Below, piece after piece: positions 12,865 through 22,726 of a stretch of 64,000 nt of DNA. The stretch covers positions 712,219 to 776,218 of the forward strand of contig NZ_KI669560.1 of assembly GCF_000508085.1 (NCBI RefSeq), given 5' to 3'. The position numbers and the translations under genes were made by a program. The notes under the pieces were generated by a model. It was not told the DNA's origin. It searched no databases and worked only from the letters and a program-made list of their open reading frames with translations. Each line of letters starts with the position of its first letter. Position 1 is the stretch's first letter. Origin of the DNA: Sediminibacterium sp. C3 (GTDB lineage: Bacteria; Bacteroidota; Bacteroidia; Chitinophagales; Chitinophagaceae).

Positions 12865-12897
12865 TTTGGATTCTAGCCTATTTTTTGTATACCTTTG
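12865..12897 (+). promoter_or_regulatory. Promoter of rimP-nusA-infB
   Basis: TTTG at 12865-12868, a 21-nt spacer and TACCTTTG at 12890-12897 match the Bacteroidota primary-sigma promoter pattern (TTTG / TAnnTTTG) exactly in sequence and spacing. Transcription should start around 12902-12905, giving a leader of about 50 nt before the rimP ATG at 12955. Confidence 0.75.
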
Positions 12898-19355: not shown

Positions 19356-19388
19356 TTTGGAAAATACATGTATATACATGTATTTTTG
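19356..19388 (+). promoter_or_regulatory. marR promoter overlapped by a 26-bp palindromic operator
   Basis: TTTG at 19356-19359, a 21-nt spacer and TATTTTTG at 19381-19388 form a consensus Bacteroidota promoter. A perfect 26-bp palindrome (19361-19386; half-site AAAATACATGTAT followed by its reverse complement) fills the spacer and covers the -7 box. Binding there would block RNA polymerase, the usual MarR mode of autorepression. The GTG start lies at 19393, so the transcript may be leaderless or nearly so. Confidence 0.75.
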
Positions 19389-19392
19389 CATT

Positions 19393-19851
19393 GTGAAATT
19401 AGAACAAGCCATACAAAGTAATAAATTCAAGAATGAAATGCATAAAGCAAGTCTGAATATATTGTATACAGCTTGGTGGTTAAAGACGCAAATGAGTAAG
19501 GTTTTAAAGGAGTTTGGGTTAACACACGAGCAATACAATGTAATGCGCATATTAAAGGGGAAGTATCCCGAACAAATGTGTGTGAAGGATATTAGTTGCA
19601 GAATGATTGAGAAAAGCTCAAATGTTCCCAGAATTATCGACAGGCTGGTCTTAAAAAAATTGGTTAAACGTGCGGATTCTCCCACAGATAAAAGAGAAAC
19701 TGTCATCACATTAACACAGGCCGGAATTGCGGTGTTGGCAGCTTCAACAGAAAGTGTGAACCAGTTAATGGAGCAAATGGTACAGATAGAGACCCAAGAG
19801 GCACAAGAGCTTAACCGATTATTAGAGAGAATGAGGGGCACAGAAGTCTAG
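19393..19851 (+). CDS. MarR-family transcriptional regulator
   Basis: A 152-residue winged-helix regulator. The GTG start at 19393 is chosen because it gives KLEQAIQSNKFKNEMHKA, the usual opening of this Bacteroidota subgroup; an ATG at 19438 would remove the first helix. The DNA-binding part is MCVKDISCRMIEKSSNVPRI with a following wing (RADSPTDKRETVITLT). MarR proteins are dimers that release DNA on binding ligands or on oxidation. It sits over its own palindromic operator, and a partial copy of the same site lies before the next gene, so it probably represses itself and the pirin-YceI-flavin reductase genes downstream. Confidence 0.9.
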   Translation: MKLEQAIQSNKFKNEMHKASLNILYTAWWLKTQMSKVLKEFGLTHEQYNVMRILKGKYPEQMCVKDISCRMIEKSSNVPRIIDRLVLKKLVKRADSPTDKRETVITLTQAGIAVLAASTESVNQLMEQMVQIETQEAQELNRLLERMRGTEV

Positions 19852-19863
19852 TTTTTTTTAATT

Positions 19864-19887
19864 AAATACATGTATATACACTTAAAT
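19864..19887 (+). promoter_or_regulatory. Second, partial MarR-type operator before the pirin gene
   Basis: The sequence AAATACATGTATATACA (19864-19880) repeats the left half and centre of the marR palindrome, followed by a degenerate right half (CTTAAAT). It lies between the marR stop and the ATG at 19896. Probably a weaker second binding site; I see no clear promoter box in the same gap. Confidence 0.6.
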
Positions 19888-19895
19888 AATTTTTT

Positions 19896-20615
19896 ATGAA
19901 AACCGTTTTACACAAGGCCAACACCAGAGGACATAACAGTTTTGGTTGGTTAAACAGCTACCACAGTTTTAGTTTTGGACATTACTATGACCCGGAAAGG
20001 ATTCATTTTGGTGCATTGAGGGTATTGAATGATGATACAGTTGCTGCAGGGATGGGATTCGGCAAGCATCCACATGATAATATGGAAATTGTATCAATTC
20101 CACTTTCTGGTGACTTACATCACCAGGACAGTACAGGAAGAAATGAAATTATCCGTCAACACGATGTACAGATCATGAGTGCGGGAACAGGAATTGCCCA
20201 TAGCGAAATGAACGCCAATAAAGACAAGGAAGTAAAATTTCTGCAAATATGGGTTTTGCCAAAGCAAATGAATATTGCTCCCAGATATGAGCAAAAATCA
20301 TTTAATCCGGCAGATCGTCAGAATGAAATTTTAACCGTTGTTGCTCCTGATCATAAAGACGCTGTTTGGATTAACCAGGATGCATGGTTTTCTCTGGCTG
20401 GTTTTGATGCAGGCAGATCCGCCATTTATGAACTTAAGAAGCCCGAAAGTGGCGTCTATGTTTTTGTAATTGCCGGCAAAGCTTCTATCAATGGTATTGA
20501 ATTGAATGAGCGGGATGGCTTAGGCATTTCTGAAGTTGAACAACTTGAGATTTTTGCCAATAGTCAGACTGAATTATTGTTAATTGAAGTTCCCATGAAC
20601 ATAAACTTATCATAA
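19896..20615 (+). CDS. Pirin family protein (YhhW-like)
   Basis: A 239-residue bicupin. The pirin N-terminal motif is present (GWLNSYHSFSFGHYYDPERIHFGALRVLND), with metal ligands in FGKHPHDNMEIVSIPLSGDLHHQDSTG and a later SEMNAN Glu. It ends with a degenerate second cupin (SGVYVFVIAGKASINGIELNERDGLGI). YhhW-type pirins can oxidise quercetin in vitro; the cellular role is usually linked to redox or electrophile stress. It is followed after one base by a second pirin gene and preceded by marR, so it belongs to the MarR regulon. Confidence 0.9.
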   Translation: MKTVLHKANTRGHNSFGWLNSYHSFSFGHYYDPERIHFGALRVLNDDTVAAGMGFGKHPHDNMEIVSIPLSGDLHHQDSTGRNEIIRQHDVQIMSAGTGIAHSEMNANKDKEVKFLQIWVLPKQMNIAPRYEQKSFNPADRQNEILTVVAPDHKDAVWINQDAWFSLAGFDAGRSAIYELKKPESGVYVFVIAGKASINGIELNERDGLGISEVEQLEIFANSQTELLLIEVPMNINLS

Positions 20616-20616
20616 G

Positions 20617-21483
20617 ATGAAAAACAGAACAATTGAAACCATTGCCTACGGACAGCCTATGGATATGGGAGGTTTTCCCATACGCCAGGCATTGCCTTCC
20701 AGTAAGGCGGATAGCATCGATCCCTTCCTGCTATTGCACCATGCGGTGTTGAAAGTGGATCCCAATGTGGATGTTAAACATGCAGGGGTGGGTCCTCATC
20801 CGCATCGTGGTTTCTCCCCTGTTACTTTTATTTTTAAAGGAGGAGTGCATCACCGCGACAGTCGCGGAAACAGTCATGTGGTATACGAAGGGGGCACCCA
20901 ATGGATGAATGCCGGAATGGGTGTTATCCATAGTGAGCGCCCTCCTGCAGATATTCAGCAATTGGGTGGTGTACAGGAATTAATTCAATTATGGATTAAT
21001 ACGCCCGCTGCCAATAAAATGGAAGAACCGGCCTATATACCCGTTTCAAAGGAAGAAACACCGGTCGTTTATTCTGAAGATAAATTGGCAGAAGTACAGG
21101 TTGTAGCTGGCGAACTCAATGGTGTTAAAGGCGCGATTGTGCCGCATACTTCCATTAATATGTTTACCATTCGGTTACAGAAGGGAGCAAAAATTGATAT
21201 TCCTTTTTCCAATACCCACAATGCATTCATTTATGTATTGAATGGAAAAATTCTCTTGAATCAGGAAGAGTTGCCTGCCCATTATCTGGCATCATTTCAT
21301 AAAGACGGTGATGGCATTTCCATCAACGCATCGGAAGAAACCACGTTATTAATGGGTACGGGTGAACCATTGAATGAACCCGTTGTTTCTCATGGACCCT
21401 TTGTGATGAACAACCAAACCCAGTTACTGGAAGCCTTCCGGGATTATCAGATGGGTAAAATGGGCATCCTCATAGAAGAGTAA
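20617..21483 (+). CDS. Pirin family protein
   Basis: A 288-residue pirin of the longer type. The N-terminal cupin has metal-binding HPHRGFSPVTFIFKGGVHHRDSRGN and the conserved WMNAGMGVIHSERP (Glu ligand). The C-terminal cupin (NAFIYVLNGKILLNQEELPAHYLASFHKDGDGI) belongs to the Pirin_C fold, and the ending GPFVMNNQTQLLEAFRDYQMG is typical. It starts one base after the stop of the preceding pirin, so the two are translated together. The exact reaction is unknown; a quercetinase-like or regulatory iron protein is possible. Confidence 0.9.
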   Translation: MKNRTIETIAYGQPMDMGGFPIRQALPSSKADSIDPFLLLHHAVLKVDPNVDVKHAGVGPHPHRGFSPVTFIFKGGVHHRDSRGNSHVVYEGGTQWMNAGMGVIHSERPPADIQQLGGVQELIQLWINTPAANKMEEPAYIPVSKEETPVVYSEDKLAEVQVVAGELNGVKGAIVPHTSINMFTIRLQKGAKIDIPFSNTHNAFIYVLNGKILLNQEELPAHYLASFHKDGDGISINASEETTLLMGTGEPLNEPVVSHGPFVMNNQTQLLEAFRDYQMGKMGILIEE

Positions 21484-21532: not shown

Positions 21533-22060
21533 ATGGCTATTTACAAAATCGACCTCATGCACAGTGAAGTAACTTTTAAAGTGAAACACTTAATGATCAC
21601 CAATGTAACCGGTAGTTTTCAGCAATTTGATGCTACAATGGAAGCAAACGCAGAAGATTTCAGCGATGCTAAAATCAGCTTTGAAGCAGATATCAATAGT
21701 ATTTCTACTGGTAACGAACAAAGAGATACCCACTTGAAGAGTGATGATTTTTTCTCTGCTGAACAATTTCCTAAGTTAAGTTTTACTTCTACTTCTTTTA
21801 CCCATAAGGGTGGATCTGATTATGTTTTAAACGGAGACCTGACAATTAAGGGCAATACCAAGCCTGTAAGTCTGAATGTTGAATTCGGCGGAAGAATGAC
21901 TGATTTCTACGGTCAGGATAAAGCTGGTTTTGAAATTTCCGGTAAGATCAACAGAAGTGAGTTTGGCCTAACCTGGAGTGCTGTAACCGAAGCAGGTGGT
22001 GTGGTAGTAAGTGATGAAATTAAGTTAAACCTGGCTGTTCAAATGGTTAAGCAAGCATAG
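21533..22060 (+). CDS. YceI family protein
   Basis: A 175-residue lipocalin-like beta-barrel protein (YceI). The pattern YKIDLMHSEVTFKVKHLMITNVTGSF, then FSDAKISFEADINSISTGNEQRDTHLKSDDFF and GDLTIKGNTKPVSLNVEF, is diagnostic. Members bind long polyisoprenoids such as quinones. No signal peptide is visible, so this copy is cytoplasmic, which fits neighbouring quinone/flavin redox genes. Fourth gene of the marR operon. Confidence 0.9.
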   Translation: MAIYKIDLMHSEVTFKVKHLMITNVTGSFQQFDATMEANAEDFSDAKISFEADINSISTGNEQRDTHLKSDDFFSAEQFPKLSFTSTSFTHKGGSDYVLNGDLTIKGNTKPVSLNVEFGGRMTDFYGQDKAGFEISGKINRSEFGLTWSAVTEAGGVVVSDEIKLNLAVQMVKQA

Positions 22061-22107: not shown

Positions 22108-22683
22108 ATGCAAATCGAAATTATATCCGGAAGTCCCAGAAAAGACAGTGTAACGTATAGAATTGCCCTTCACTTACAGGAGCATCTGCGTAAACACACC
22201 GATCATATGGTAGGAATTATTGATGTGAGAGAATGGAAACTACCTTTATTGGAAACGGTTTTTTCTTCCGTAGATCAGACCCCAGAAGCCTATAAGCCAT
22301 TGGCAAAAAGAATTTTTGCTGCCAATGCCTTTATTTTGGTAACACCCGAATACAATGGAAGCTATGCACCGGCATTACAGAATTTGCTGGACCATTTTCC
22401 TAAGCAAACCAGAAAAGCTTTTGGATTGGTAACCGCTTCTGTTGGTGCAATGGGAGGGATGCGTGCGTCTCAGCAATTGTTGTTGCTGGTTCCTGGCTTG
22501 TTTGGTATAGCTTCTCCGCATATGCTGATTGTTCCTCAGGTAGATAAAAAGTTTGATGCCGCTGGTCAGCTCACTGATCCGGGATTCCAGGGCGCTACAG
22601 ATAATTTTGTCAGAGAATTCTTATGGCTGGCCGGGAATTTACTACCCGAAACGGTGGCAGAAAAACGAACCGTATATAATTAA
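22108..22683 (+). CDS. NAD(P)H-dependent FMN reductase
   Basis: A 191-residue flavodoxin-fold enzyme. The phosphate-binding loop IISGSPRKDSVTYRIA and the stretch FILVTPEYNGSYAPALQNLLDHFPK are the NADPH-dependent FMN reductase signature (PF03358). Such enzymes reduce quinones, azo dyes or free FMN. It is the last gene of the marR-pirin-pirin-yceI group; a hairpin with a T-tract follows. The set suggests a response to quinone-like or electrophilic compounds (inference). Confidence 0.88.
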   Translation: MQIEIISGSPRKDSVTYRIALHLQEHLRKHTDHMVGIIDVREWKLPLLETVFSSVDQTPEAYKPLAKRIFAANAFILVTPEYNGSYAPALQNLLDHFPKQTRKAFGLVTASVGAMGGMRASQQLLLLVPGLFGIASPHMLIVPQVDKKFDAAGQLTDPGFQGATDNFVREFLWLAGNLLPETVAEKRTVYN

Positions 22684-22695
22684 TTTTTAAAAGGG

Positions 22696-22726
22696 TGGCG
22701 GAGTTGTAACTTCGCCATTCCTTTTT
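22696..22726 (+). terminator. Hairpin with T-tract between the flavin reductase gene and purF
   Basis: Arms TGGCGGAG (22696-22703) and CTTCGCCA (22710-22717) pair with one G-T wobble around a TTGTAA loop and are followed by TTCC and five T. It can end the marR operon. It also lies only 10 nt before the purF ATG, so if purF has its own promoter upstream, this is a leader attenuator like that of rimP. Confidence 0.65.

Follow-up and report, generated by a model that had tools for sequence, protein, structure and literature searches.

Organization of the marR locus

The window analyzed here is a 64,000-nt stretch of one contig from the 3.2-Mb genome of Sediminibacterium sp. C3 (GCF_000508085.1, NZ_KI669560.1, positions 712,219 to 776,218). 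In this window, the genes are arranged in the order surA, marR, pirin, pirin, yceI, FMN reductase and purF. The marR gene (19393–19851, plus strand) encodes a 152-aa protein, with a GTG start codon 4 nt past a –7 box, and its product matches PF01047 at 31.7 bits (cut-off 24.6). Four genes identified by domain matches follow on the plus strand: pirin 1 (Pirin and Pirin_C_2 domains; 19896–20615, starting with ATG at 19896), pirin 2 (Pirin and Pirin_C domains; 20617–21483), a gene for a YceI-like protein (21533–22060), and a gene for an NADPH-dependent FMN reductase-like protein (22108–22683). A hairpin resembling an intrinsic terminator, identified by consensus match, separates the FMN reductase gene from purF (22693–22725, plus strand); its 12-pair stem (22693–22720) is followed by CTTTTT, and it is likely to be the end of the unit. 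Going by their family names, the pirin, YceI-like and FMN reductase-like proteins point to chemistry of redox compounds, quinones or isoprenoids.

The initial annotation, whose interval (19356–19887) ends within the spacer before the pirin ATG, had joined marR and the four genes behind it into one switch, with quinone or electrophile stress as the putative signal. These genes do travel together, with pirin in one or two copies: among 80 named loci, some of which are cut by contig ends, pirin is present in 76, yceI in 72 and FMN reductase in 65. In the same loci (L120–L199), again with some cut by contig ends, surA lies directly 5' of marR in 65 and purF is present in 68, and the order and number of the genes between surA/marR and purF vary. 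A literature search found no paper joining marR, pirin, yceI and FMN reductase genes.

Relatives used for comparison

We searched 294 genomes of the family with MarR, and 269 matched at E 0.001, with many paralogues among the matches. The best 108 places, down to E 5.7e-32, were listed; 107 of these were used, and one, which carries an internal stop codon (G185), was excluded. The 80 named loci were taken out of 181 encoding a relative. Removal of identical marR genes reduced the 187 oriented loci to 161 distinct loci, and a tree of 160 MarR proteins was built from these after leaving out one short protein. The best named relative, MarR of Sediminibacterium salmoneum, is 97% identical to the protein studied here.

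Operator 1 covers a conserved promoter upstream of marR

A –33 element, TTTG (19356–19359, plus strand), is separated by a 21-nt spacer from a –7 element, TATTTTTG (19381–19388, plus strand), whose register is kept in relatives. Operator 1, the perfect 26-bp palindrome AAAATACATGTATATACATGTATTTT (19361–19386, unstranded), has the core ATGTATATACAT at 19368–19379 and extends over the promoter spacer into the –7 box, most of which it covers. The palindrome over the promoter had been pointed out in the initial annotation, and it is indeed perfect: the sole match in the window at up to three mismatches is the site itself, and none was found in 100 shuffles. The half-site ATACATGTAT occurs three times in the window, against 0.09 expected.

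Conservation of the palindrome in related loci had been named beforehand as a check, and the core of operator 1 was kept, with at most one mismatch, in 150 of the 161 distinct marR loci. Among the 80 named loci, which are the best matches and hence the nearest relatives, operator 1 is perfect in all 79 that are readable; the remaining one (L130) ends before the site. A genome search for the half-site had also been proposed. In the whole 3.2-Mb genome, the 12-bp core RTGTAYRTACAY is present at exactly two places, operators 1 and 2, compared with one match in the backward-read control, so the search for a wider regulon yielded no further core in the organism's own genome. Similarly, in the 867,481 bp surrounding the 80 named loci, every one of the 180 core matches (overlapping matches counted) falls inside operator 1 or 2. 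Extra matches to RTGTAYRTACAY were seen in the same genus at G164:C6:83098, G164:C9:40787, G261:C2:153228 and G261:C13:28595, in numbers similar to those of the backward-read control.

The promoter had been described as a perfect TTTG-N21-TATTTTTG. Both elements are at the claimed positions, but the consensus alone is at chance in the window, where TTTG-N18-22-TAnnTTTG was found twice versus 3.95 expected in shuffles. The only other instance in the window is at 12865–12897. The weight of the promoter call comes from the relatives: in 144 of 150 loci, the offset of TAnnTTTG from the core start takes one of two values, +11 (110 loci) or +13 (34 loci). Within +5 to +60 of the core, TAnnTTTG was detected in 146 of 150 loci, and TTTG precedes the –7 box by 18–21 nt in 116 of the 144, with none at such spacing in the other 28. 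By comparison of relatives, the region upstream of marR thus has both features of Bacteroidota sigma-ABfr promoters, TAnnTTTG at –7 and TTTG near –33. A sigma-70 scan scored below shuffles.

MarR proteins are dimers, and members of the family bind palindromes of 16–20 bp in this form. The site adjoining marR, conserved in relatives, is an 18-bp palindrome. Site 1 is a probable promoter-operator at which MarR would repress its own gene; the comparison, with an operator over a conserved promoter before marR, supports the autoregulation first proposed.

marR mRNA is predicted to be leaderless

In 129 of the 144 loci, TAnnTTTG and the marR start codon are 4 nt apart; the gap is 8 nt in 11 and longer in 4. 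At the 4-nt gap, the start codon is GTG in 108 loci, ATG in 20 and TTG in one. The residues that follow, K2, L3 and E4, are invariant in an 11-row alignment, indicating that marR coding begins at that codon; the start of marR is thus most likely GTG 19393. Transcription in Flavobacterium johnsoniae starts 4–5 nt past the –7 box, as described in PMC6847099. Because of this distance and the 4-nt gap, we predict that marR mRNA is leaderless, with transcription beginning at or next to the GTG. Such short leaders are uncommon in the phylum: leaders exceed 10 nt in 87% of the F. johnsoniae transcripts with a probable promoter (PMC6847099), and about 3.7% of 5' UTRs are under 10 nt in Bacteroides thetaiotaomicron (PMC7366714). 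Of 27 outside-family loci that have a –7 box, 13 show the same 4-nt gap. A leaderless GTG start, as predicted here, is uncommon among Bacteroidota, and its conservation across the family makes it directly testable.

A second operator lies behind marR, preceded by a T-run

Operator 2, TAC-ATGTATATACAC-TTA (19867–19884, unstranded), has its core at 19870–19881 and shares 17 identical bases with operator 1 (19362–19378 and 19864–19880). The initial annotation had noticed a partial copy of the palindrome before the pirin gene and called it a half-site. The copy is real, but what was taken for a half-site is a full second operator rather than a stray one, because the 12-bp core is intact there and is kept, with at most one mismatch, in 128 of the 161 distinct loci. 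Both operators are kept in 126 loci, and the core of operator 2 is within one mismatch in all 80 named loci. The earlier reading was also incomplete in that the T-run, the missing –7 box and the predicted leaderless start had been overlooked.

No –7 box accompanies this operator: TAnnTTTG was found within +5 to +60 of the operator 2 core in none of the 128 loci, and a consensus promoter at operator 2 was therefore rejected for the family, although it is true for some relatives outside. Two relatives in which the pirin start (MKTI) is conserved bear on the same point. In L145, the pirin start codon is inside operator 2, at +10 from the core start, and in L022 it is at +19; both are too close for a promoter at operator 2. 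The pirin ATG in the window is 26 nt from the core start. As in a roadblock, operator 2 has no promoter of its own, and the transcription reaching it would come from the marR promoter.

Directly 3' of the marR stop codon is a run of eight T (19852–19859, plus strand). The measures of this T-run were picked after the loci had been viewed, and the counts come from the very loci that revealed it: six or more T occupy –17 to –11 from the operator 2 core in 117 of 128 loci, and seven or more in 110. In 108 of 128 loci, the sequence from –17 to –10 is TTTTTTTA or TTTTTTTG; over all 128, the base at –10 is A in 80, G in 42 and T in 6. The gap between run and core is 10 nt in 114 of the 117 operator 2 loci with a run of five or more T, and 9 nt in the remaining 3, while the distance from the marR stop codon to the core ranges from 0 to 37 nt, mostly 17–19. 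At the same place before operator 1, six or more T were found in only 15 of 150 loci. Six or more A were found at the T-run place in 0 of 128 loci and at the mirror place in 1 of 128, which rejects the run as a mirror-symmetric part of the operator.

The run goes with marR and with operator 2. Within 30 nt past the stop codon, seven T were found behind 72 of the 80 named marR genes, versus 3 of 378 for six other tested genes together, and six T past the marR stop in 1 of the 33 loci without operator 2. Eleven of the 128 operator 2 loci lack the T-run; some have A4T3 instead, and the commonest exceptions, AAAATTTR, are unbroken A/T. The loci are related: on the tree, operator 2 changes three times and the T-run ten times, and there are only two supported independent pairs, with which a sign test cannot reach 0.05.

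An intrinsic terminator behind marR was rejected, with no hairpin before the T-run in the 128 loci: the 30 nt before the run had a mean z of –0.1 compared with shuffled sequence. A stem adjoining the run is present in 18 of 128 loci. A role as a translation signal of the next gene is unlikely, as the distance of the run is fixed to the operator and variable to the next long ATG frame, a comparison that includes some false starts inside the operator.

A conserved cysteine in MarR

The structure model of MarR (pLDDT 83.6) has MarR proteins as its best PDB fold matches, with TM up to 0.81, and the nearest matches include MepR–DNA structures. Cys63 is present in 159 of the 160 MarR proteins of the tree. 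In the model, it closes the first strand, immediately before a helix that starts at residue 64. In translations of the nine MarR proteins of A2, from outside the family, residue 63 is L or M. Thiol-switch MarR proteins such as OhrR and MexR carry a reactive conserved cysteine. Cys63 is a candidate thiol sensor, as a lead only, because the similarly laid-out MhqR does not use its cysteine, as described in PMC6798810.

The two-site layout outside the family

We then looked at 40 outside-family loci, chosen from a longer list and including three paralogue loci of the same genus (L223–L225). These loci were obtained later than the set in which the T-run was discovered, but their ancestry overlaps with it. 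A TGT-N4-ACA palindrome lies before marR in 29 of them and behind marR in 22, compared with 28 of 800 shuffled spacers. The cores behind marR are mostly TTGTATATACAA or TTGTAGATACAA, and twice TTGTTYRAACAA. In L213–L239, L242 and L244, the operator is changed to the TTGTATATACAA or TTGTTYRAACAA type and the two-site layout is kept.

Among the 22 loci with an outside-family operator 2, 14 have a run of five or more T, in 12 of these 10 nt from the core; such a run precedes operator 1 in 1 of 29. Taken together, these loci suggest that the two-site geometry with its T-run persists in other families of the order even though the sequence of the operator has changed. Operator 2 has its own –7 box, at +22, in 15 of the 22 outside-family loci. 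The T-run is present in 8 of these 15 and in 6 of the 7 without a –7 box, numbers too few to tell a trade-off, and in the 8 loci with both, the run could serve the promoter.

We also searched for the arrangement of T-run and operator more widely. A strict cassette pattern was found in 4 of 395 genomes of the phylum, three of which are Sediminibacterium. A looser pattern was found in 30 of 247 genomes of the class, at 36 places versus 19 matches in the backward control. Several of the loose-pattern matches (L247–L275) end in ATGAAATGTTTAAACAA or a close form.

Discussion

We propose, at somewhat short of an even chance, that this MarR regulates itself through two operators, combining autorepression at operator 1 with a T-run-aided block of elongation at operator 2. 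With the spacer and –7 box both lying under operator 1, MarR bound there would switch off initiation at the single promoter. Operator 2 closely follows the marR stop codon, in a spacer that would be transcribed, and MarR on this site would halt polymerase leaking from the promoter. A polymerase stalled about 15 bp before operator 2 would sit where the T-run is located, and the six to nine T ending 10 nt before the core would leave a weak U-rich hybrid behind the stall, favoring backtracking and release. Given the order of stop codon, T-run and operator 2, leaky transcription would yield some MarR while the pirin-pirin-yceI-FMN reductase genes stay off. An inducer, perhaps acting at Cys63, may free both operators together.

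Several other explanations were weighed against this mechanism. Operator 2 might instead cover a second, non-consensus promoter, the end of the T-run (TTTR) serving as –33 with a poor TA-rich –7, so that MarR represses two initiations. The distance from TTTR to core 2 is about that from TTTG to core 1, a true –7 box is found at +22 in 15 of 22 outside-family loci, and in the window, where the ATG is 26 nt from the core 2 start, a start site just before the ATG would be possible. However, TAnnTTTG is missing within +5 to +60 in 128 of 128 family loci, a run of seven T or longer in 110 of them goes far beyond a TTTG, and the start codons of L145 and L022 precede any start site that such a promoter would give. 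Moreover, where relatives do have a true second promoter, its –7 box at +22 is too distant for the run to serve as the –33 element. We regard this explanation as unlikely. The T-run might also act as DNA, as a helix-shaping A-tract, as a UP-like contact for polymerase, or by touching the repressor or some other protein next to operator 2. The unbroken A/T stretch kept in AAAATTTR speaks for such a role, and where relatives have a second promoter, the run would be at the place of a UP element. By contrast, the sense strand has T in 117 and A in none of 128 loci, with nothing at the mirror place; operator 1, which the same protein should bind, mostly lacks the run within the family (15 of 150) and outside it (1 of 29); and a UP role needs the promoter that is missing at operator 2 in the family. 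This makes a role as DNA distinctly unlikely.

In plain two-site repression, operator 2 alone would block elongation, and the T-run would serve some other purpose at the end of the marR message. Repressor roadblocks without a special sequence are known for LacI, PurR, GalR, ArsR, CcpA and CodY, as described in PMC10310618. Yet the distance of the run is fixed to the operator, at 10 nt in 114 of 117 loci, and not to the stop codon, and just 1 of the 33 loci lacking operator 2 has six T past the stop; we give this explanation little credence. Two conserved sites at near-constant spacing, about 500 bp apart, could also be the ends of a DNA loop held by MarR dimers. The spacing is set by the length of the marR gene itself, MarR proteins are dimers, and operator 2 is absent in 33 of 161 loci, leaving a loop highly improbable.

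Among known systems, MepR of Staphylococcus aureus has the MarR fold, like the protein here (PDB fold matches). MepR binds before its own gene and before its effector gene, which has its own promoter. Within the family studied here, by contrast, a –7 box is missing from operator 2.

MhqR of the S. aureus mhqRED operon is a MarR-type quinone repressor that is autorepressed and heads its own detoxification unit, as proposed for the MarR here, and its 9-9 bp inverted repeat at the promoter has the size of TAC-RTGTAYRTACAY-GTA (PMC6798810). The MhqR operator, at –6 to +12, differs in sequence from the marR operator, and the cysteine of MhqR is neither conserved nor needed, whereas Cys63 is present in 159 of 160 proteins here; the sections of that report drawn on here do not mention a second operator with a T-run (PMC6798810). 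Bacterial roadblocks by LacI, PurR, CodY and others would share with operator 2 an operator within a transcribed stretch that stops elongation, and the corresponding part of PMC10310618 does not mention a conserved T-run at a fixed distance, the feature that distinguishes operator 2. The terminators of RNA polymerase I (Reb1, Nsi1 and TTF1) have a T-rich non-template stretch about 15 bp 5' of the roadblock, compared with T at –17 to –11 here, and roadblock and T-rich stretch jointly drive backtracking (PMC12366685). These terminators are eukaryotic, act constitutively at the end of rDNA and require an upstream RNA hairpin (PMC12366685), and no such hairpin was found before the T-run.

By analogy with them, operator 2 and the T-run might form a repressor-dependent terminator that needs neither an RNA hairpin nor Rho, a bacterial counterpart of Reb1/TTF1. 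One leaderless promoter would thereby become a two-level switch with a geometry that outlives changes of the operator. We consider this extended reading doubtful. The 11 of 128 loci without a T-run count against the two-operator mechanism proposed above, because the A4T3 that some of them have instead would make a poor U-tract, as does the absence of an RNA hairpin, because the polymerase I counterpart needs one for release (PMC12366685). The –7 boxes in 15 of 22 outside-family loci also count against this mechanism, because the T-run found in 8 of these 15 could serve a promoter.

Judging from the compared loci, a T-run and an operator at fixed distance, without a promoter, may be a new element in repressor control. 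The dedicated single-copy operator RTGTAYRTACAY is directly testable because it is conserved across the family. If T-run and operator cooperate, a repressor site and a T-tract would together make an inducible, hairpin-free bacterial terminator, and, if true, this terminator would be small enough to spot in sequence and to build with.
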